The notes beneath the pieces were generated by a model. It had not been told where the DNA came from. It did no database searches and saw only the letters and a program-made list of their open reading frames with translations. Source: Woeseiaceae bacterium (GTDB lineage: Bacteria > Pseudomonadota > Gammaproteobacteria > Steroidobacterales > Woeseiaceae). Taken from it: a stretch of DNA of 64,000 nucleotides. Shown here piece by piece: positions 2,909 to 62,953 of this stretch. Both the position numbers and the translations under genes were made by a program. Within the stretch, counting starts at the first letter, position 1. The number at the start of each line of letters is the position of its first letter. The stretch is from contig JAJFKT010000015.1 in the NCBI GenBank assembly GCA_021773075.1, positions 109,022 to 173,021 on the forward strand, given 5' to 3'.

Positions 2909-3022
2909 ATAGACAGATTCCAAAGCTACACTGTTGCCGTTTGGAGACATCTGGACGAATTCCCGAATTTGCGAGAAAGTAAATATTCGGAATCTGGCGG
3001 GGGTCGGATCAGAGCGACGGAA

Positions 3023-4213
3023 ATGCAGGTAGATGGAGTTGGGCTGCGCGAACAAAGGGCAATCGTCCGTTACAAATCGCAGCAACAAGCACTAAGATTT
3101 GTTGGAAAAATTTTGACCGATAAGCGAGGTATTGCCTTGCTACATGGTCCGAAAGCATCCGGTAAGTCTGTAGTAGCCAATCAATTTGTGCGCGAAGTTC
3201 AAGCGGATCTTGCGATCGCGGTTGTTGATGGCGCGCGCATGAAAACCGCAGAACTACTATCGGCGATACTCGAACAATTCGGCTATCACATCGTGCTCGA
3301 CTCTACGGATGAAATGCTGAATATGATCAGCGTGTTTGTTGTCCAGCAATCTCGAACACGGCAAGCACCCGTGTTGATAATCGAGAACATCAACGACATG
3401 TTTCCAAGCGCTTTGGGCGCGCTTTGTCGACTTGCGGAACTTAACGTGAACCAGCGTTACGCAATGCGGATGATCCTGATTAGCAATCGCAATATTGAAC
3501 GCATCATAAAATCGCCGAGCATGACGGTGATTGCAAATCGGGTGATCGGAAATTTCGAGTTGGGCCCGATGACATCCAAGGAGGCGCTGCTTTACCTGTA
3601 CGCGAAGCTGCGTGCGCGTGGCGTAGAACGGCCCGACGATATTTTTTCAGTCGATGTATGCGAGAGGCTACATTCACTTTCTGGCGGGTGGCCCGGTGAG
3701 TTAGAGACGATTGCGTTGTCGATCATAGAGCAGGCCAAAGAATTCCCAGTTCGAGTGGACGACATCGTCGATCCGGACGCGCCTGTCAAAGACACCACGC
3801 CGAAACTCATAATCACCTTAACCGGCGGGTCACCAAAGGAAGTTCGGCTAACGGAAAAGCGCGCGTTAGTCGGGCGCTCGGATTTGAGCGATATTGTCAT
3901 TCTCGATCAATTCGTGAGTAGCCAGCATGCTTTGTTGATTCGGAATGAAAGCGCCGTCGTATTGGTCGATCTCAAAAGTCGAAATGGCACGTTCGTGAAC
4001 TCACGGCGAGTGCAAAGCAAAGTTCTTTTGCACGATGACATTGTTTCTATTGGCGACCATCGAATGAAGATGGTTTACGCGGATGGTCATTCGACAATCG
4101 AAATAGAAGATCCGGAATTGGCCGACACAGCCAAGATGAAGAATATTGCCGATGCGCGCCGCAATCGCGAAGAGAAAATTCCAACGCTGGTCGTCGTCAG
4201 AGACGAAAAGTAA
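3023..4213 (+). CDS. AAA ATPase (ExeA-like) with C-terminal FHA domain, copy 1
   Basis: Walker A GPKASGKSV, Walker B-like PVLIIENIND, FHA core GRSDLSDIVILDQFVSSQHALL...LVDLKSRNGTFVNSRRV. ATG at 3023 chosen over the track start at 2969. Confidence 0.85.
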   Translation: MQVDGVGLREQRAIVRYKSQQQALRFVGKILTDKRGIALLHGPKASGKSVVANQFVREVQADLAIAVVDGARMKTAELLSAILEQFGYHIVLDSTDEMLNMISVFVVQQSRTRQAPVLIIENINDMFPSALGALCRLAELNVNQRYAMRMILISNRNIERIIKSPSMTVIANRVIGNFELGPMTSKEALLYLYAKLRARGVERPDDIFSVDVCERLHSLSGGWPGELETIALSIIEQAKEFPVRVDDIVDPDAPVKDTTPKLIITLTGGSPKEVRLTEKRALVGRSDLSDIVILDQFVSSQHALLIRNESAVVLVDLKSRNGTFVNSRRVQSKVLLHDDIVSIGDHRMKMVYADGHSTIEIEDPELADTAKMKNIADARRNREEKIPTLVVVRDEK

Positions 4214-14600: not shown

Positions 14601-15770
14601 ATGCAAGAACACAGTTCTTCAATTGGCAGCCAGGCGTTCGGGGAGCACGCTGACACCGGGCTGATCGTTGCCTACCATTCGCACCAGGATGCTTTGCGGT
14701 TCCTGGCGTCTTCGCTGGGTCAGACGAATGGCGTAGCGCTTTTGCAAGGTCCCGCTGGGTCCGGCAAGAGCACCATTATCAAGGAGCAACAAAGCTGGTC
14801 TCTTCGCGAATCGGCGGTCGCGCTGATGGACGGCATTCACCTTAGCCCCCGGCAGCTACTAAGCGAAATGCTGTCGCAGTTCGATATCAACTTTACGACA
14901 GAACACGACGAGCACCTGTTGCAGTTATTAAATGGCTTTCTGACACAGCAGACCAGTAGCGGACGGACCCCGGTGCTGATCATCGATAACGCGGATCGGG
15001 CGACACCCAGTGCGCTCAGACTGTTGAACTGGCTCGCGGCTCTGGATGCGCGCGGCAATTACGCGCTGCGTATTGTACTAACGGGTAAAGAGCGACTTAG
15101 AGCACTGCTGAAAAGCGACAGCATGCGTAGTTTCGTACGTCGCCATCCCGCAATTTATTCCCTGAATCCAATGACGCCGCAGGAATCGACTATCTATTTG
15201 CGAACGCGTCACATCGCCGCAGGTGGCAAACGCAGTGACGAAGCGTTCACGGTAAAGGTCTGCGAAAAGCTGCATGAGTTATCGGGCGGATGGCCTGGCC
15301 TGTTGAACCGGTGTGCCTTGAAAGCAATGCAACGGCTGGACGAGTTGGAGTCGGCGAAGCCAGTGCCGCGCATAATAGTCTCGCGCGATGGCGAGCAAAT
15401 GGCCGAGTATGAATTAACCGAGCGACAATATCTGATCGGGCGCAACGAGCTTTCGGATATTGTTATCGAAGACACCTATGTCAGCAAGATGCACGCGATG
15501 TTACAGATTTACTCAAACGCGATTGTTCTGCTCGACTTAAACAGCACCAACGGCACAACAGTAAATTCCAGAATCGTGCAAAAAACGATTCTGCGTAGCA
15601 ATGACATCATATCGCTGGGTCATTATCGCTTGAAGATCGAAAATGCCCCGGCAATTGATGCCGATATGGACGATCGTTTGAAGCTGTCAGACACGCTAAC
15701 CATGCAAAATCTCGTGGATATGCGTCGATCGCGCGCGCGCCGGACAATCAAGGCTCTCAAGCACAAATAG
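14601..15770 (+). CDS. AAA ATPase (ExeA-like) with C-terminal FHA domain, copy 2
   Basis: GPAGSGKSTI Walker A, PVLIIDNADRATPSALRLLNWL, FHA core GRNELSDIVIEDTYVSKMHAML...LLDLNSTNGTTVNSRIVQ; collinear with the 3023-4213 protein. Confidence 0.87.
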   Translation: MQEHSSSIGSQAFGEHADTGLIVAYHSHQDALRFLASSLGQTNGVALLQGPAGSGKSTIIKEQQSWSLRESAVALMDGIHLSPRQLLSEMLSQFDINFTTEHDEHLLQLLNGFLTQQTSSGRTPVLIIDNADRATPSALRLLNWLAALDARGNYALRIVLTGKERLRALLKSDSMRSFVRRHPAIYSLNPMTPQESTIYLRTRHIAAGGKRSDEAFTVKVCEKLHELSGGWPGLLNRCALKAMQRLDELESAKPVPRIIVSRDGEQMAEYELTERQYLIGRNELSDIVIEDTYVSKMHAMLQIYSNAIVLLDLNSTNGTTVNSRIVQKTILRSNDIISLGHYRLKIENAPAIDADMDDRLKLSDTLTMQNLVDMRRSRARRTIKALKHK

Positions 15771-27070: not shown

Positions 27071-27425
27071 AAATATAGACTACCACGTGGCATCCCCGGA
27101 GGCCGTCGAGTCGGAGCTTGGGCAAAAGCTGGAGCGACTCCGCCTCAGCAAAAACATCAACCAGACGACGCTTGCGAGAGAGGCTGGCGTATCTCGCCGA
27201 ACCATTACGCGGCTGGAGAACGGCGAGGGGATTTCGCTCGACACCCTTATCCGTGTGATGCGAGCACTCGGTGTCGTCGATCGCTTTGCAACGCTCTTGC
27301 CGGACCCGACGACGCGCCCCGTTGAACGCATCAAACTCGGCGGACGTGAGCGCAAGCGTGCACGTAGCAAGAAGACGGCAGACGCAGGCGCGTGGACGTG
27401 GGAGCCAGAGTCCGGCGAACAATGA
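27063..27425 (+). CDS. hipB: HipB-like XRE-family antitoxin/regulator
   Basis: LGQKLERLRLSKNINQTTLAREAGVSRRTITRLENGEGISLDTLIRVMRALG; ATGA overlap with hipA. Confidence 0.88.
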   Translation: MTQNIDYHVASPEAVESELGQKLERLRLSKNINQTTLAREAGVSRRTITRLENGEGISLDTLIRVMRALGVVDRFATLLPDPTTRPVERIKLGGRERKRARSKKTADAGAWTWEPESGEQ

Positions 27426-28720
27426 CAGACGCGCGCGTAATTCTCTGGGGCCGCGATATCGGCGCCGTATCCTGGTTGGATGATCGGGAAGTCGCCGTAT
27501 TTCAGTATGTGCCGGAATTTGTCGACAGCGGTATTGAAGTCGCGCCATTGATGATGCCACTGCAGGAGGCGCCCTATGAGTTTCCGGCTTTGCCGCGAGA
27601 CGCATTCAAGGGACTGCCAGGACTGCTGGCAGACTCGCTCCCCGACAACTATGGGAACGCGTTAATTGATGCCTGGCTTGTACGCCAGGGTCGAACTCCG
27701 GAGAGTTTCAATCCTGTTGAACGTCTTTGCTATACCGGTGCGCGCGGGATGGGCGCCCTCGAGTTCAAACCCACCTTATTCGGCAGGTCGAATCAAGCGA
27801 ATCCGCTCGAGGTTGCGGAACTTGTCGAACTCGCCAACAAAATTCTTGCTGAGCGAGCGACGCTTGGCGGCAGCTTGTCCGGCGTCGACGACACGCAGAC
27901 GATCGAAGATATTCTCAAGGTAGGAACATCCGCCGGTGGCGCGCGAGCGAAAGCCATCCTGGCGTGGAACGAGGAGACCGGGGAGTTTCGGTCCGGGCAG
28001 GTTGCCAATGATGATGGGTTCACTTACTGGTTGATGAAGTTCGATGGCATCGATGACAACCGGGACAAGGAAATTGCGGACCCGCAGGGCTATGGACTCA
28101 TTGAATACGCGTACTTCCAGATGGCAGTCGCGGCCGGGGTCGAAATGTCAGAGTGCCGCTTGCATAGGGAAGGCGGCCGTGCGCATTTCATGACGAAGCG
28201 ATTCGACCGGACAATGCAAGGCAGCAAGCTGCACATGCAATCGCTGTGCGCCATGATGCATTTCGACTTCAACCAGCCGGACGCGTACTCCTACGAACAG
28301 GCGCTGCAAACCATACGCCGCATCGACATGCCAGTGGCCGATGTCGAACAGCAATTTCGGCGTGCAGTGTTCAATGTCATTGCTCGCAATCATGACGATC
28401 ACGTCAAGAACATTGCATACCTGATGAACAGATCCGGCGAATGGCGCCTGTCCCCGGCCTTCGACATAGCCTATTCGTACAATCCCAGTGGCGCCTGGAC
28501 GAGCCGTCACCAAATGAGCATCAACGGCAAACGCGATGAGTTCGTAATCGACGACCTTCTGGCCCTCGGAAAATCGGCCGCCATCAAGCCGGCGCGAGCT
28601 CGGGAAATTATCGATGCGGTTGTCGAGTCAGTTCAAAATTGGAAGGAGTTTGCCGATAGCGCTGGTGTTGAAAATCAGACAGCAACAAGAATTGCGAAGG
28701 CGCACAGGGTACTGACTTAG
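27422..28720 (+). CDS. hipA: HipA family serine/threonine kinase toxin
   Basis: GTSAGGARAKAILAWN, YWLMKFDG, FNVIARNHDDHVKNIAYLMNRSGEWRLSPAFDIAYS kinase motifs. Confidence 0.92.
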   Translation: MTDARVILWGRDIGAVSWLDDREVAVFQYVPEFVDSGIEVAPLMMPLQEAPYEFPALPRDAFKGLPGLLADSLPDNYGNALIDAWLVRQGRTPESFNPVERLCYTGARGMGALEFKPTLFGRSNQANPLEVAELVELANKILAERATLGGSLSGVDDTQTIEDILKVGTSAGGARAKAILAWNEETGEFRSGQVANDDGFTYWLMKFDGIDDNRDKEIADPQGYGLIEYAYFQMAVAAGVEMSECRLHREGGRAHFMTKRFDRTMQGSKLHMQSLCAMMHFDFNQPDAYSYEQALQTIRRIDMPVADVEQQFRRAVFNVIARNHDDHVKNIAYLMNRSGEWRLSPAFDIAYSYNPSGAWTSRHQMSINGKRDEFVIDDLLALGKSAAIKPARAREIIDAVVESVQNWKEFADSAGVENQTATRIAKAHRVLT

Positions 28721-55145: not shown

Positions 55146-55195
55146 GCGGACCGAAAATCTGCGTGTCGGTGGTTCGATATCGCCCCTGGCCACCA
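55146..55195 (+). tRNA. Decayed 3' fragment of tRNA-Phe(GAA), putative att-site remnant (not a functional tRNA)
   Basis: gcggaccgaaaatctgcgtgtcggtggttcgatatcgcccctggccacca: anticodon arm with GAA, T-arm and acceptor 3' strand with CCA; no matching GGCCAGG 5' acceptor arm or intact D-arm upstream. Confidence 0.68.
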
Positions 55196-55339: not shown

Positions 55340-56482
55340 CTACTTCAAGCCAATCTCTGTGTTGCTGCGAATTTGATCCAGAAGCTGCGTTTCGCCGGAC
55401 GTGCCGGGAAGAAATTCATCTGTGTTGAATCCGCCGGGCTGAATGTCGACCAATGCGAGAATCTCGCGAAATTTTCCGCGCTTAAAGGACTCAGCTGAAG
55501 ACGATTCTCGGAGATGCAAATACAAGTCTGGCAAGAATCTCATGAATGCTCGGAATCCGTTTGTTCGCGGCAGGATGTTGCCTTTGTCTCTACTAATCCA
55601 ATCGTCATGCCATAGACTGTCAATAGCGTGGAAGTACTCCGATACATTTTTGGCGATCGCCGAGTCCTTCTCGCCGACAAATAAATGCCGAAAGGGCATT
55701 TTTCTTCGTTCATCATCATTTGGAGGTGCTAGCTTCTTGCCGCGAAGTAATCGATCGCGGTCCGTTACTTCGTCACTGGTTATTGTTGGCATGAGGGACA
55801 TGACAAACGCTGCTTGAGTGATGGTCTCGCCAGTCACGCCGGGTGTGGCGCTTCCTAATCTCTTAATCATCCCTTTGAACGGACTCTCTGCCGATCTATT
55901 CAGCGCAACGGCAATATTGTGACATGTTTTCTGAGGACTTCGAGATTTGGAGTAATCAAGAAGGTCGAAAACCAAACTTCGGTTGACCTTAGTTTGCGCG
56001 AGATTGACCGTAGCAAACATGTACGCTTGATCAGCGATATCGGCATCCACGACAATCGTTACCGGTACCTGAAATACTTTCTCCTCGAACGATCGCAATC
56101 CCTCGATTCTATGCTGACCATCCAGCACTTTTGCGATGTCAATAAATGCTATTTCGCGCCGCCCTTTCTTCTTGGCAACACTCGTTAACGTTAACAGCTT
56201 AGATTTTTCGTCGAATGAAGCGCACTCTCCCTCTACCGAAAGGACTATTGAGGTGGGGAACGCGGCATCGATCGTGTTCACAAATTTTCCGATATCCGCA
56301 ACGCGAGTCGGACTAAGTTTTCTTTGAATCCCAATATAGTTGTCAAGCTCTGTTTCGATTCTGCGCATGTCGACAAAAGAAATCTGACATAGGTCACTGT
56401 GATTCATAACGCCGACATAAAAATCGCCAATCGGTTGGGTCATTTTTATCGCATCAATAGTTATCTCGCCATGTTCCATCAC
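55340..56482 (-). CDS. DGQHR domain-containing protein (DndB-like family)
   Basis: Diagnostic VLDGQHRIEGLR; FATVNLAQTKVNRSLVFDLLDYSKSRSPQKTCHNIAVALN. Confidence 0.87.
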   Translation of the reverse strand: MMEHGEITIDAIKMTQPIGDFYVGVMNHSDLCQISFVDMRRIETELDNYIGIQRKLSPTRVADIGKFVNTIDAAFPTSIVLSVEGECASFDEKSKLLTLTSVAKKKGRREIAFIDIAKVLDGQHRIEGLRSFEEKVFQVPVTIVVDADIADQAYMFATVNLAQTKVNRSLVFDLLDYSKSRSPQKTCHNIAVALNRSAESPFKGMIKRLGSATPGVTGETITQAAFVMSLMPTITSDEVTDRDRLLRGKKLAPPNDDERRKMPFRHLFVGEKDSAIAKNVSEYFHAIDSLWHDDWISRDKGNILPRTNGFRAFMRFLPDLYLHLRESSSAESFKRGKFREILALVDIQPGGFNTDEFLPGTSGETQLLDQIRSNTEIGLK

Positions 56483-56991
56483 TGACCTCCTTCATCGCTA
56501 AGGTCTATCGACGATCCACTTTCGGCACGAGGTTGTTCGAGCATACGATCCATACGATATTGAAAGACTTGCGTTATGTACCAGGTGAGAATGGCGACGA
56601 TGTACGCGGCAATTGCAAAATAGAATACGTATTCCTTATCTACATCTGGATTCGTCTTCGACACTGCGTAGACGATGGCGGTGGAAAGGAGTAAACCCCA
56701 GATTGTCCACTCCAAAGCAAAGAAAGCGCTGCTATGTCGTCGAGCTCGCCAATGAAAAACCATGTATGTAATCGAAGGAGCAATGATTGCCGTAACATAT
56801 AGAAAGACTTCTGTCGGAATGAAGAATTCTGACCATGATTTTCCCAGGCCGGACAATGACTTGTAGCCATCATAACCATTTACTCCGCCGACAAGCCATA
56901 TCGATAAAATCGGAATTAGCGAAGATATGGACCAAATTGCAACGGTTTCCTTTGCCGCTTTGTAATAAGGTGTTTCGCGAAAATTGCGCAT
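56479..56991 (-). CDS. Small four-TM membrane protein, operonic with the DGQHR gene
   Basis: Four hydrophobic segments (SSLIPILSIWLVGG, VFLYVTAIIAPSITYMVF, WTIWGLLLSTAIVYAV, YFAIAAYIVAILTWYITQVF); ATGA overlap with the DGQHR gene. Confidence 0.78.
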   Translation of the reverse strand: MRNFRETPYYKAAKETVAIWSISSLIPILSIWLVGGVNGYDGYKSLSGLGKSWSEFFIPTEVFLYVTAIIAPSITYMVFHWRARRHSSAFFALEWTIWGLLLSTAIVYAVSKTNPDVDKEYVFYFAIAAYIVAILTWYITQVFQYRMDRMLEQPRAESGSSIDLSDEGGQ

Positions 56992-57026
56992 CAGATCCTC
57001 ATATAATAATTTTGGAGTGATTCAGT

Positions 57027-57839
57027 TCACCGCCAACACTGAATAACCAATTCGGATTGGAGTCCTCGGTACTCGCTTGATGCCGCAATTACACTCGACC
57101 GACTCACCCGCTCCTTAGAAAATCCACGGTAGAGTTTTCGAACGGTCGAATGGTCCGCGTTCGTAATCAAGACTTTGGCGCCTCTTATCGTAGCGTTTTC
57201 CACAGAATCGCGAAGGCGCAATTGATCTTGCCATGAAAAAATCTTCTCATTGTATTTTAGGAATCCGTTCAGATTGTGATTTACCGTGTACGGTGGATCA
57301 ACGAAGACAAAGTCTCCCTTCCCCGCGGCGCCGATGGTTACATCGAAATCGCAAACGCGTAGATCCGCATTTTGGAGCACCTCAGCAGTTTGGCGAAAAT
57401 CATCGGATGGCAGTAGAGCAGATTTCTTGCTGCCGATTGGAACATTGAAGTCCCCATTCCTGTTTACGCGGTAAAGTGCATTCCAGCATGTTCTATTCAA
57501 ATAGATCGTACGAGAAGCTCTCGCGAATTCTGACCTAGGGACTGTTGCTCGAACGTCGTAGAAATAGGATTTCGAGTGATTCTGGTCGTGCACTCGAAGA
57601 TACCGCCATACTAAATCGGGTCTTTTCCTTAGCGCGGTATATGCGTTAATTAGTTCACCGTTGATGTCTGAAAGAACGGCGCGTTTCGGAGCCAAGAAAA
57701 AATAGACAGCAGCGGAGCCAAGAAAAGGCTCGTAATAGCTTCGAAACCTTTTCGGAAAGAGATGAAAATGATCTTGGACAAACCAACGCTTGCCACCCGC
57801 CCACTTTAGAAATGGTGCAATTTCTTTCGCTTGATTCAT
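57027..57839 (-). CDS. D12-class DNA adenine N6-methyltransferase (Dam family)
   Basis: IAPFLKWAGGKRWFV motif I; FLGSAAVYF; FVFVDPPYTVN (DPPY). Confidence 0.93.
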   Translation of the reverse strand: MNQAKEIAPFLKWAGGKRWFVQDHFHLFPKRFRSYYEPFLGSAAVYFFLAPKRAVLSDINGELINAYTALRKRPDLVWRYLRVHDQNHSKSYFYDVRATVPRSEFARASRTIYLNRTCWNALYRVNRNGDFNVPIGSKKSALLPSDDFRQTAEVLQNADLRVCDFDVTIGAAGKGDFVFVDPPYTVNHNLNGFLKYNEKIFSWQDQLRLRDSVENATIRGAKVLITNADHSTVRKLYRGFSKERVSRSSVIAASSEYRGLQSELVIQCWR

Positions 57840-57960
57840 ATAGCACCCCATCCCCTATTCGGGCATTGTAGCCCACATATATCAACGATGCTTGAGATGT
57901 AGTTCTCGTAACGAGAGACTGTTGGTTTGACCATGAGTCGCCCACGTTGGTAGGGTGGCC

Positions 57961-58635
57961 CTACTGCTCCGGCAATTGATCGCTATTCGCTGCCTCGGCA
58001 TCCTCAGGCTCGTCTTGGCTCTCTGGAGCTTGAATGGGCAGTTCGATATCCGGCGCATCGCTAGCACTAATACTAGTTTCATCTGGTTGTTGAACTTGAG
58101 TAGTGCTGAACTCTTGGGTCTCCTTATTCTTTGCTTCCTCGGTCATAGGCGTAGGCGTGGTTACGATTAGCAGCAGTGCGAACAGTACAATTAACGCACC
58201 GCCGACTCCGTAGAAAGAATCCATTTTATCCTTCGAATGAAACGTTTTGCCAAAGAGATCGAAAGGACTTTCTTTGCCAATAGATTTGGTGAGTGAAAGT
58301 TCCGGCAACACATCCTCGTATTTTTCTTCGATTGCCTGGCCATGATATATAGAGCCCATTAATAGACGGTGATACCAAAACCGATCCATGAAGTACAACG
58401 CAAGCCAGAACACAAGTGCTGCCACAAGCACGTAGACACTAATTGGAATGACAATACTTCCAATTGATGCAGTAAGACCCTCTCTATATGACAAAGCAGC
58501 TGCGCCGAGAAGAGCACCCAAACCACCAACGGCGATGCTGCGAATTTTCATTTCGATGTCGTTAAAGTGTTTTTGAACATCAATCGTCGCTTTCCAGATT
58601 TCTACTATTGCGCCAAGTTCAGTCTTTTCGCTCAT
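57961..58635 (-). CDS. Membrane protein with 3 TMs and an N-terminal helix, SLATT-like organisation suspected
   Basis: MSEKTELGAIVEIWKATIDVQKHFNDIEMKIRS then two closely spaced TMs, an amphipathic region, and a third TM GGALIVLFALLLIVTTP; overlaps the HAD gene by 17 nt. Confidence 0.7.
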   Translation of the reverse strand: MSEKTELGAIVEIWKATIDVQKHFNDIEMKIRSIAVGGLGALLGAAALSYREGLTASIGSIVIPISVYVLVAALVFWLALYFMDRFWYHRLLMGSIYHGQAIEEKYEDVLPELSLTKSIGKESPFDLFGKTFHSKDKMDSFYGVGGALIVLFALLLIVTTPTPMTEEAKNKETQEFSTTQVQQPDETSISASDAPDIELPIQAPESQDEPEDAEAANSDQLPEQ

Positions 58636-59515
58636 CTTTTTTTCCTGTCGCGAATACGAAGTGGCCGAGCAATTCTGAGAATCCGTTTTCAAGCACAATG
58701 CTGGGCGTGACTTCGTCACGAGTCAATTTACGCTCAGTCGCTACTTGCTCGTCCGTCCAATGTGTCACTTCCCGTAATAGTTCATAGCTCTCTCGCGTGT
58801 GAGCTTCGCCGTATGCGGCGAGCACGTCATCAACGCCGGCATGCTGTGCCATCGCGACATCCTTAAATAGGCTATCGCCGACATAGACAGCATCGCTTTG
58901 GCTGACGCCCATGTCAGACACAATGTCTTGCAAGATCTGCGGATTCGGTTTGACTTCGCCGGCAGGAGTGTTCCTATGAACCGTCCTTTCCAGACTCTTG
59001 TATTCGGACTGAAATAGCTCTTCCCTATCGCGATTCAGGTTAGCCGGAATATCGTGGTCGGCGGGCGAGTAAATATAGTGGAGTAATCCATCAAGACCCA
59101 ATCGCGAGATTCGGTAGCTAGTATAGTAAGCCATCGATTCGGTATAACCGACTATTGTTCCTCCCGCCGCGGCAATCCCGGTTAGCGTATCAACAACTCC
59201 CGGGTACACCTCCAAAGTCTGTTCGCGTGCATCTCGGAACGCCTGGACGGCCTTTTGATAAGTTCGACGCGTACCTTCTGGGTCACTATGGTTCTGCAGG
59301 CTCGGGAGTTCCTCAATCAGAAATGCATATTCCGACGTGCCGTGGAGTTGATGAACAGACTTTATCTCCTTTACCAACTGAGAGCGGGGCATCTTACTCG
59401 TGGCCACGAGCGTATCCAGCATGGCTGAAAAGGACTGATACCAAATCTCAACCCAGTCAAACAGCGTATTGTCTAGGTCTGTAATTAGTAGCGTCTTTGG
59501 AATTGGTGTACTCAT
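58619..59515 (-). CDS. HAD superfamily hydrolase
   Basis: LLITDLDNTLFDW motif I (DxDxT); VKPNPQILQDIVSDMGVSQSDAVYVGDSLFKDVAMAQHAG. Confidence 0.92.
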   Translation of the reverse strand: MSTPIPKTLLITDLDNTLFDWVEIWYQSFSAMLDTLVATSKMPRSQLVKEIKSVHQLHGTSEYAFLIEELPSLQNHSDPEGTRRTYQKAVQAFRDAREQTLEVYPGVVDTLTGIAAAGGTIVGYTESMAYYTSYRISRLGLDGLLHYIYSPADHDIPANLNRDREELFQSEYKSLERTVHRNTPAGEVKPNPQILQDIVSDMGVSQSDAVYVGDSLFKDVAMAQHAGVDDVLAAYGEAHTRESYELLREVTHWTDEQVATERKLTRDEVTPSIVLENGFSELLGHFVFATGKKDERKD

Positions 59516-59909
59516 CCGAGCGTGCTGTCCTTGCGGGCTATATTCTTGGTGAGAGACTTACGTCTGCCAGAGAATTTGTAACAATTGGCCGCTGGTAGTC
59601 TACCAGTAGCTCGTAGTTATCTGCCGGCCTATATCAGTCGCCCTGTCAGATGTTATTCAGATGAACTGGATCGGTCTTAGTTACTAGATACCCCTTAGCC
59701 GTATTGTTGGCGGTATTGCCGTCGGAAGCTGACCGATTCAGGAACGAATCTACTACCTAGAATCATCGCTTAACCAAGGACGAGGATTGACCGATGATCT
59801 AGTTGCGATGAGACGTGCTCGTGATCAAGGACCTCTATGGAGTCGGCCGCTATGGCTCGCGCTGGGAATAAATGATATCGTGATATCAACTCGTCCCAGA
59901 GATCGCAAA

Positions 59910-61190
59910 ATGACAAAAGATGTCCTGATTCGTGACTTAACAACTGAAGATCAAAACTGGCTAAATGACGCGAAGCCCGCTGGCATTTCCCAAGTGGAAT
60001 TCCTCCGCTCGGTATTGCGGGAAGCGAGGGATAATTCATTGCAGCCGAGTCTCTTTGATTTCGCGATTGAGCCTAAGACCGTTTACGGAAACGTGCCGTT
60101 CAAATTTATCGATCTGTTCGCCGGCGTTGGCGGATTTCGTTCGGGGCTTACTGCCTTGGGAGGCAAGTGCGTATTCACCAGTGAGTGGGATAAATTCAGT
60201 AACAAGACATACCAATCCTGGTTCGGGGATGAAGATGTTCATACTGGCGATATTCGTGAATTGGACATCCGCACTGAGATCCCGGACCACGATGTCCTCT
60301 GCGCAGGTTTTCCTTGTCAGCCGTTCTCATTGGCAGGCGTGTCGAAAAAGAACTCTCTCGGTCGCAGCCATGGATTCGAGGATGAAACTCAGGGAAACCT
60401 TTTTTTCAAAATCATGGATATTGTCGATAAAAAACGGCCACCGGTTCTGTTCCTTGAGAATGTTAAGAACCTTAGATCTCATGACAAGGGAAATACGTGG
60501 AAAGTAATTCAGGATTCTTTGATCGAACGTGACTACTCGGTATTTAGTCGCGTTATCGATGCTCGTGGCTGGGTTCCTCAACATCGAGAGCGCATCTTCA
60601 TTGTTTGTTTTGATAAACAAATCTTTGGACGAGAAGACGAGACTAATTTCCAGTTTCCAGAACCGCCGGAAGGGGAACCGCTTACGTTGAGCTCTATTCT
60701 GGAGACCACGGCGCCGGATAAGAAATACATGCTTTCCGACAAACTGTGGAGCTACTTACAAGCCTACGCGGAGAAACATAGAAAGAAAGGTAATGGATTC
60801 GGATATAGCCTGTTCACAGGTAAGGATGTGGCCCGCACACTGAGCGCGAGGTATCACAAAGACGGCTCGGAAATCCTGATCAAACAGAAGGGCTGGAGGA
60901 ACCCAAGAAGATTGACGCCTCTCGAGGCGAAACGGCTAATGGGTTTTGTCGACAAATATGCTGAAATGTATGGGCATGAGGATGGTTTTCCTCAGGTTGT
61001 GTCAGACACACAGGCGTATAGACAGTTCGGCAATGCAGTCGTACCACTGGTAGTAGAGGCTATCGCGCGTGAAATAGTACACACTATGTCGCAGGCGATA
61101 ACTACAGCGGAAAACAGCTGCCTGCTCAAAGGGCGAGTTTTTGCATCCGATAAGAATGGACGTACACGACAAGGAAACGCGCAGCCGTAA
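59910..61190 (+). CDS. C5 cytosine DNA methyltransferase with N-terminal RHH-like segment
   Basis: FKFIDLFAGVGGFRSGL, AGFPCQPFSLAG, LFLENVKNL, QHRERIFIVCF, YRQFGNAVVPLV; N-terminus MTKDVLIRDLTTEDQNWLNDAKPAGISQVEFLRSVLREARD. Confidence 0.95.
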   Translation: MTKDVLIRDLTTEDQNWLNDAKPAGISQVEFLRSVLREARDNSLQPSLFDFAIEPKTVYGNVPFKFIDLFAGVGGFRSGLTALGGKCVFTSEWDKFSNKTYQSWFGDEDVHTGDIRELDIRTEIPDHDVLCAGFPCQPFSLAGVSKKNSLGRSHGFEDETQGNLFFKIMDIVDKKRPPVLFLENVKNLRSHDKGNTWKVIQDSLIERDYSVFSRVIDARGWVPQHRERIFIVCFDKQIFGREDETNFQFPEPPEGEPLTLSSILETTAPDKKYMLSDKLWSYLQAYAEKHRKKGNGFGYSLFTGKDVARTLSARYHKDGSEILIKQKGWRNPRRLTPLEAKRLMGFVDKYAEMYGHEDGFPQVVSDTQAYRQFGNAVVPLVVEAIAREIVHTMSQAITTAENSCLLKGRVFASDKNGRTRQGNAQP

Positions 61191-61617
61191 TATGTCCCGC
61201 ATTCGCGGGACGAATACAAGACCAGAGCTTCAGGTAAGAAGAGTTTGCCATGGGCTGGGATTCCGATACCGGCTTCATCGAAAAGATCTCCCAGGAAAAC
61301 CGGACCTTGTCTTTCCCAAATATGGGGCCGTTGTATTTGTGAACGGTTGTTTCTGGCATGGCCACGATTGCCATCTGTTTAAAACGCCAGGCACTCGTAC
61401 GGAGTTCTGGACGGAAAAAATTGCCGGAACCAGGGCGCGAGATGAGTATCAGATCGCGCAGCTCGTTGACCTCGGATGGAGAGTGATGACCATTTGGGAG
61501 TGTGCGTTGAAAGGGAAGGGTAGACTGGATACTGACGAGACTGGTAGCCGAATCTCGGAGTGGTTGCTTTCGGGGACCGTGGTCTCAGAGGTTCGGGGGA
61601 GGATGAATGGGGCCTGA
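61156..61617 (+). CDS. vsr: Very short patch repair endonuclease
   Basis: KETRSRNMSRIRGTNTRPELQVRRVCHGLGFRYRLHRKDLPGKPDLVFPKYGAVVFVNGCFWHGHDC. Confidence 0.96.
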   Translation: MDVHDKETRSRNMSRIRGTNTRPELQVRRVCHGLGFRYRLHRKDLPGKPDLVFPKYGAVVFVNGCFWHGHDCHLFKTPGTRTEFWTEKIAGTRARDEYQIAQLVDLGWRVMTIWECALKGKGRLDTDETGSRISEWLLSGTVVSEVRGRMNGA

Positions 61618-62953
61618 TCTTGCAACCTTGAAGAAGATGATGTCAGACCACGGCGTCCAAAGACTTCTGTTCAAGCGGCTATCACCCAATGACAACAGCA
61701 AGAATCAGCCTTATTTCGGGCCTGATCTTACGTCTCTCGGTTTTATTCCTACTGGGGAAATAAGAGGGACACCGACCACTTCGGATAAGCCGAAGAAGTC
61801 GCAGGTGAAGTTCCTGGCATCTTTGGATTTTTATTGGTTGGGTGACGAAGGAGAACTCGCGTCGGCGCCGAATGCCAAGCTCATTTTCTATCCTCAATAT
61901 CCTGAAGTGCGGTTTTCTGGTTTTCTTCTTGGATGCGCTTCAGGACCAAACGAGCTGATGGACCCTAAAAAACGTGGCAGGGAAGAAGGGCGGATATTAT
62001 TTCTCGGGATTAGTCAGGATGGAAGAATTATCGGGTATCTGGCCCCTGCAGATTCTGAAATAGCGCGGTACCTGACCGGCACATGGGATTTTGCATCAAT
62101 TGGAGTGTTTGAAGAAGTACCGACAGTCTATGCGGCGGCACCGTCTGACTCGAGATCGGAGCTACTTCGGGAACTGCGGCGTATCAGTGCGAAGGGCTGG
62201 ATAGATTCAAAGCGATTGAAGGCGGACGGTTCGACAATCGCATACAGTGCGCCGAATGGGGGCGGCTTCACTCTCGAAGCCGAATTTGGGATTACCCCGA
62301 ACGGTTATTCGGAGCCGGACTTTCTTGGCTGGGAGCTCAAACAATACGCCGTGCGTAATCTGGATAAACCGTCGGGAGGGCGAGTTACGCTGATGACGCC
62401 AGAGCCGAACGGCGGCTTCTATAAGGATCGAGGAGTCGAAGAATTCCTTCTCAAGTTTGGATACGCGGATACAAAAGGGCGAGATCGCCTTAATTTCTGT
62501 GGGACGCATAAGGCTGGCGTGAAGCACCAAAGAACGGGACTTACTTTATCCATGCCGGGGTTTGATGAAGAAAATACCAAGTTGATCGACCCGTCTTCGG
62601 GCCTGTTTCTTGTTAACGACGATGGCGAACCCGCAGCGACATGGAGTTATGCCTCGATTCTCGACCACTGGAAAAGGAAGCATGCTCAAGCAGCGTATGT
62701 TCCATCTACTCGGCGTCGGGATCCGAAGTTGCAGTACCGATTCTCGAGTAACGTCGATCTTGGCACAGGCACAGGCATGTCACGATTGCTTGGTGCCATA
62801 TCAAGCGGGACAGTATTCTACGATCCAGGAATAATCATGAAGGATGCGTCTGGCTCACGACGCCCGATCAAACGTCGAAGCCAATTTCGAGTAACTGCGC
62901 CGAATTTGCATACCCTCTATGAATTGTTTGAGCGAGTAGTCCTCGACGAATAA
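61607..62953 (+). CDS. MvaI/BcnI-family restriction endonuclease
   Basis: GGFTLEAEFGITPNGYSEPDFLGWELKQY catalytic region; position after C5 MTase and Vsr, with a 4-codon overlap with vsr. Confidence 0.83.
   Translation: MGPDLATLKKMMSDHGVQRLLFKRLSPNDNSKNQPYFGPDLTSLGFIPTGEIRGTPTTSDKPKKSQVKFLASLDFYWLGDEGELASAPNAKLIFYPQYPEVRFSGFLLGCASGPNELMDPKKRGREEGRILFLGISQDGRIIGYLAPADSEIARYLTGTWDFASIGVFEEVPTVYAAAPSDSRSELLRELRRISAKGWIDSKRLKADGSTIAYSAPNGGGFTLEAEFGITPNGYSEPDFLGWELKQYAVRNLDKPSGGRVTLMTPEPNGGFYKDRGVEEFLLKFGYADTKGRDRLNFCGTHKAGVKHQRTGLTLSMPGFDEENTKLIDPSSGLFLVNDDGEPAATWSYASILDHWKRKHAQAAYVPSTRRRDPKLQYRFSSNVDLGTGTGMSRLLGAISSGTVFYDPGIIMKDASGSRRPIKRRSQFRVTAPNLHTLYELFERVVLDE

Follow-up and report, generated by a model that had tools for sequence, protein, structure and literature searches.

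A predicted modification-dependent defence module in which a DGQHR-domain protein is paired with a small membrane protein and a Dam-type methylase

The three-gene locus and its island

The window, by which we mean the whole 64,000-nucleotide stretch of Woeseiaceae DNA that was analysed, carries three minus-strand genes for a DNA adenine methyltransferase, a small protein with four transmembrane (TM) segments and a DGQHR-domain protein. These genes lie among the following features:

55149-55195, plus strand: tRNA 3'-end-like relic with a terminal CCA, located at the edge of the island (from the sequence)
55340-56482, minus strand: DGQHR-domain protein, DndB/DpdB kin, 380 aa, GTG start (TIGR03187, PF14072)
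56479-56991, minus strand: small 4-TM membrane protein, 170 aa, partner of the DGQHR protein (from position and AF2 model)
57027-57851, minus strand: D12-class (Dam/DpnM-like) DNA adenine methyltransferase, with the ATG at 57839 as its likely start
57961-58719, minus strand: 3-TM protein of a Hydrolase-TM system (PADLOC Hydrolase-TM, E=1.4e-32), likely start at an internal Met at ~58635
58619-59515, minus strand: HAD-family hydrolase of the same Hydrolase-TM system (PADLOC Hydrolase, E=5.3e-85)
59787-62953, plus strand: overlapping ORFs for Dcm (C5 methylase), Vsr and a MvaI/BcnI-family restriction endonuclease, a type II restriction-modification (R-M) unit

The tight spacing described in an earlier note on this DNA proved exact in its coordinates and in its intervals, with 35 nt between the Dam and TM genes and a 4-nt overlap (GTGA) between the TM stop codon and the GTG start of the DGQHR gene. 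That note had also read the methylase as a D12/Dam-type enzyme, and the profile scans agree (Pfam MethyltransfD12, PF02086, E=4.7e-44; NCBIfam TIGR00571 dam, 227.6 bits against a cut-off of 114.9). The closest solved structure is that of DpnM (2dpm, E=1.1e-52), with E. coli Dam (4rtj) also matched, and the alignment with these two enzymes takes in the WNALYRVNRNGDFNVPIG region, the DPPY motif, which is present in 60/60 relatives, and the target-recognition region that reads GATC. Dam and DpnM enzymes methylate the adenine of GATC. No D12 gene other than that of the trio was found in the source genome.

The DGQHR protein reaches 181 bits on TIGR03187 (DGQHR; cut-off 58.85), and the kinship to DndB that had been claimed for it is borne out by PF14072 (DndB; 47 bits, cut-off 29.1), which was the sole Pfam family above cut-off on the 380-aa protein, with no HNH domain among the matches. 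Across 82 DGQHR sequences 21 columns are invariant, among them D121-G-Q-H-R125. Foldseek comparison of the AF2 model (pLDDT 91) returned ParB-CDP and sulfiredoxin as the top folds at the weak level of E=0.03-1 (best 0.034), and a PHROG ParB-like match was found at E=2.2e-5; hhalign profile comparison with chromosomal ParB was non-significant, and the DGQHR profile gave zero matches to PDB sequences. PMC4619093 and PMC10853773 treat DGQHR proteins as DndB/DpdB kin within the ParB/Srx superfamily, and the latter discusses the relation of DndB to ParB. By HMM, DpdB and DndB come closest among characterised proteins, and 82/82 members of the family have DpdB as their best PADLOC model; PADLOC hits on the DGQHR relatives were confined to the generic DpdB/DndB models, and the TM family falls under none of the PADLOC models. 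No nuclease was recognised in the typical trio.

For the 4-TM protein, Pfam, PADLOC, NCBIfam and PHROG scans gave zero family matches. Its AlphaFold2 model consists of four long helices (mean pLDDT 87) and had zero significant matches among PDB folds, with no known channel or scaffold among them. Because identity within the TM family averages ~13-17%, searches by sequence fail and homologues had to be located by position; direct tblastn with the TM protein against plasmids, phages and 399 genomes returned nothing useful. The signatures S-x-x-P and G-E-L-x-x-Y are common to the family.

The HAD hydrolase and 3-TM genes directly upstream on the same strand (57961-59515) were overlooked by the earlier reader. 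A HAD plus TM pair is reported to be active against T7 (PMC9122126), and these two genes were not found near the trio in its other loci. A single five-gene operon including them was rejected because they match Hydrolase-TM (Hydrolase-3Tm), a separate known system despite its position, and do not recur with the trio. Similarly, the MvaI/BcnI-family endonuclease was rejected as the nuclease of the trio because it sits divergently within the Dcm-Vsr-endonuclease unit. Beside the tRNA relic, at ~55.2 kb, GC content steps from ~57% to 46%; a second copy of the relic that might serve as an attachment site was not found, the sequence being single-copy in the assembly, and the window holds no intact tRNA. 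Taken together, the neighbouring systems, the GC step and the tRNA relic indicate that the stretch is most likely an acquired defence island. Elsewhere in the window, inspection by eye picked out two similar-looking plus-strand proteins, each resembling an ATPase that ends in an FHA-like C-terminal region (2969-4213 and 14601-15770), and a plus-strand ORF for a HipA-like kinase of 442 aa (27392-28720).

Conservation of the TM-DGQHR pair and exchange of its modification enzyme

The comparative set consisted of 85 DGQHR loci, namely the window locus, 80 loci from GTDB, three from plasmids and one from a further genome. The GTDB loci were the best 80 of 137 matches obtained when 84,980 species genomes were scanned by alignment, and more distant DGQHR branches are under-sampled because the queries were mostly DGQHR sequences from trio loci. 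The first finds were the three plasmids and one genome, all with the TM-DGQHR order; in three of them a Dam gene lies immediately upstream of the pair. The full set, including the best 80 of 137, spans 11 named phyla. The earlier note had named a lack of co-conservation elsewhere as grounds for rejecting its proposal; the same gene order is found again in dozens of unrelated genomes, and this objection was rejected.

In all 81 judgeable loci of the set, those whose upstream sequence is long enough (again with the best 80 of 137 GTDB matches), a small TM gene stands immediately 5' of the DGQHR gene, encoding a protein of ~150-300 aa with 2-5 TM segments as predicted by a simple hydropathy rule, and in 65 of these 81 the TM stop codon overlaps the DGQHR start. 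Distances among TM proteins correlate with those among DGQHR proteins at r=0.78, as against 0.33-0.37 for Dam with either partner (0.37 with DGQHR), all of these values including shared descent. Because TM linkage is found in 81/81 loci, the enzymes vary, and r is 0.78 for the pair as against 0.37 with Dam, we conclude on comparative grounds that a TM-DGQHR pair forms the obligate core, with the modification enzyme exchangeable. The trio proposed earlier is a real co-conserved unit, but its indivisible part is the pair, and Dam is a partner that can be exchanged.

An adjoining DNA-modification gene was present in 75 of the 85 loci, or 75 of the 79 that could be judged, the GTDB loci here too being the best 80 of 137. 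The enzyme is a D12 Dam in 62 cases (upstream in 56, downstream in 6), MT-A70 in 10, Dnd phosphorothioation in 2 and an N4/N6-type enzyme in 1. MT-A70 is often accompanied by a BglII-type endonuclease, and endonucleases of this type occur in 6/85 loci (best 80 of 137 included). BglII-type enzymes have GATC-containing recognition sites. The ten loci lacking an adjoining modification gene comprise six that are cut off at contig ends and four that are judgeable, and all four of the latter genomes encode a trio-type methylase in trans. In three of these genomes (L048, L060 and L064) an MT-A70 gene elsewhere shares 67-84% identity with trio-linked ones, and in one case it adjoins a BglII gene; in the fourth (L038) an unlinked Dam, with 62% identity to the Dam of a close trio relative, lies at a contig end beside an apparent insertion sequence. 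With 75 pairs linked and 4 unlinked, every one of the 79 judgeable pairs shares its genome with a modification enzyme, which in four cases is encoded in trans. Four of the six genomes with contig-end loci carry D12 or MT-A70 elsewhere, and in the other two, both incomplete MAGs, neither D12 nor MT-A70 was found. The base rate in the phylum of the window is 24/299 genomes for MT-A70 and 108/299 for D12. When MT-A70 is mapped onto the DGQHR tree, its 10 rows take 10 changes, at least 6 of which are forced by well-supported branches; read from this tree, Dam is repeatedly replaced by MT-A70.

In the Dnd loci a small ORF (TM where checked) lies directly 5' of DGQHR, beside dptFGH or dndCDE, and the pair exists in addition to DndB. 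At one such locus, in E. coli 55989 (L095, 9001-10680), the annotation calls the TM gene 'accessory gene regulator B family', and the DGQHR gene is broken up into two ORFs; of 5426 complete E. coli genomes, 123 have this stretch in near-identical form (at least 99%). Three other relatives encode an extra DGQHR protein of ~760-790 aa (L027, 1745-4126; L080, 4983-7283; L087, 5054-7330), whose N-terminus is weakly resolvase-like (Hjc/Card1 nucleases).

Several observations bear on mobility. A close DGQHR relative was found in 2 of 99 related genomes, the source genome included, a patchy distribution within the genus, and a same-genus relative has a phage integrase ~5 kb upstream. Relatives of the trio reside on both small and large plasmids. 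In IMG/VR, 28 viral or proviral contigs, some of them near-duplicates, carry a relative, with a methylase in 28/28 and the TM gene in 27/27 of those with upstream sequence; in the provirus L110 the set lies, by eye, near repressor and UmuDC-like genes. DGQHR was absent from INPHARED phages at 1e-20. By its genomic distribution, the trio is a widely co-conserved mobile unit of chromosomes, plasmids and prophages. On many of the viral or proviral contigs (L103-L106, L108-L112, L116, L119 and L123) the methylase is convergent, tail to tail, with TM-DGQHR.

Relation to known systems

The earlier note had not recognised the trio as a named system, and none of the named systems in the scanned PADLOC library matched it either. 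Among the closest known systems is SspABCD-SspE, which also combines modification enzymes with a protein carrying a DGQ[QH]R-motif NTPase domain and displays mark-dependent antiphage action (PMC9646914). SspE, however, carries a nuclease at its C-terminus and lacks a membrane partner, whereas the trio has a predicted 6mA mark and a 4-TM partner, and Pfam detected neither the DUF262-type DGQQR domain nor the C-terminal HNH of SspE in the DGQHR protein. Dnd loci share the DGQHR superfamily and can hold a small-protein plus DGQHR pair beside dptFGH/dndCDE, but the window, as the earlier note had said, is without dnd genes: tblastn with DndB/C/D and DptF/H gave zero matches there. Dnd membership was rejected on this absence of dnd/dpt genes and on TIGR04172 (DNA phosphorothioation-associated DGQHR protein 1), on which the trio protein scores 172 against a cut-off of 450. 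DpdB, the best PADLOC model, is described in PMC12839542 as a ParB-like ATPase; membership was rejected with 72 bits on NF041060 (cut-off 300), the trio has Dam in place of a transglycosylase, and neither dpdA nor dpdC was identified by Pfam and NCBIfam scans among the neighbouring genes examined.

Type II R-M systems of the DpnII/BglII/BstYI kind, which act at GATC-containing sites, resemble the trio in their Dam/DpnM-like or MT-A70 methylases, and some trio relatives come with a BglII-family endonuclease, but Pfam, PADLOC and NCBIfam found no restriction endonuclease among the three genes themselves. Kiwa, with a small 4-TM membrane protein (KwaA) and a putative DNA-interacting protein (KwaB), serves as a working analogy (PMC12904381); it has no methylase, and Kiwa membership was rejected with no KwaA or KwaB (DUF4868) match among the PADLOC hits. 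Passages of the open literature on DGQHR, Dnd and BREX (PMC4619093, PMC3226654, PMC10853773, PMC12839542) do not describe the trio. It is probably a so far unnamed defence system, as far as its gene content indicates.

Candidate mechanism and competing explanations

The earlier note had suggested a modification-sensing system that acts at the membrane, and this idea is the best-fitting reading of the trio at the level of sequence. Put generally, the trio is predicted to be a mobile, modification-dependent defence module that would distinguish self from foreign DNA by methylation, a prediction for which we regard the case as evenly balanced. Dam would place 6mA marks at GATC sites of the host, the DGQHR protein would act as a ParB/sulfiredoxin-fold NTPase that probes DNA and takes the mark as the difference between self and non-self, and the 4-TM partner would hold the DGQHR protein at the inner membrane or couple it to that membrane. 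We slightly prefer a version with Kiwa-like tethering, in which incoming unmarked DNA would be blocked or damaged at the membrane, over a second version in which the membrane would be opened, leading to abortive infection. SspE offers a precedent for the sensing step, its DGQQR NTPase domain detecting phosphorothioate in a defence that depends on the host mark (PMC9646914), and a review covers Kiwa, Zorya and SNIPE as cases of membrane action at DNA entry (PMC12904381).

A more specific proposal, which we put forward tentatively, is a nuclease-free, methylation-gated membrane immunity: the DGQHR NTPase would read 6mA, or phosphorothioate in the Dnd-linked cousins, and unmarked DNA would cause the 4-TM partner to seal off the DNA or depolarise the cell, one pair thereby serving several chemistries. 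R-M has been thought to need a nuclease that enforces the methyl mark, whereas the trio couples the marker to a membrane protein and a predicted ParB-like NTPase, a pair that phosphorothioation loci contain as well. Should it prove immune in function, the pair would give unrelated DNA modifications a 'reader plus membrane arm' in common, and a role would be gained for long-uncharacterised DGQHR proteins beyond DndB/DpdB and for many orphan Dam genes of prophages and plasmids.

The TM-DGQHR pair might instead regulate or localise its modification enzyme, which would make the trio an orphan epigenetic system with no immune arm. Negative regulation by DndB of the modification operon to which it belongs has been published (PMC4507180), DpdB is described in PMC12839542 as a ParB-like ATPase that assists modification, and these two are the closest characterised relatives of the DGQHR protein by HMM; nevertheless, transcriptional or enzymatic control needs no membrane partner, and the pair occurs with chemically unrelated enzymes (D12, MT-A70 and Dnd), accompanies DndB itself in Dnd loci, tolerates an unlinked methylase and has a Dam that evolves loosely relative to it. 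We judge regulation credible but rather unlikely. Less probable again is restriction of a classical type, in which the DGQHR protein itself would cut unmethylated GATC, Dam would protect and the TM protein would help or localise. An obligate modification gene, present even in trans, is what such a system would have, some ParB/Srx members nick DNA and nucleases of that superfamily are cited in PMC12839542, and BglII-type partners accompany 6/85 loci (GTDB loci being the best 80 of 137); a known nuclease motif is absent, however, and several relatives already possess an endonuclease (BglII) or the ~760-aa resolvase-like protein.

The viral and proviral contigs (28 in number), the plasmids, the surroundings of provirus L110 and the ParB-like fold would all suit a trio that serves the mobile element, with epigenetic or anti-restriction methylation and TM-DGQHR as an exclusion or partition-like helper. 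We nonetheless consider this quite improbable, given that chromosomal islands are equally common hosts and that the pair also occurs in non-phage Dnd loci and has been added to complete BglII R-M units. As for the idea that functionally unlinked neighbours merely pile up in defence islands, the island in the window does hold two other known defence systems, but the HAD and 3-TM neighbours, by contrast with the trio genes, are not conserved with it, gene order is fixed and methylases are repeatedly swapped for functional equivalents. Such accumulation is the least probable account of the trio by far, and for TM-DGQHR it is refuted by the linkage in 81/81 loci and by the overlapping start and stop codons.
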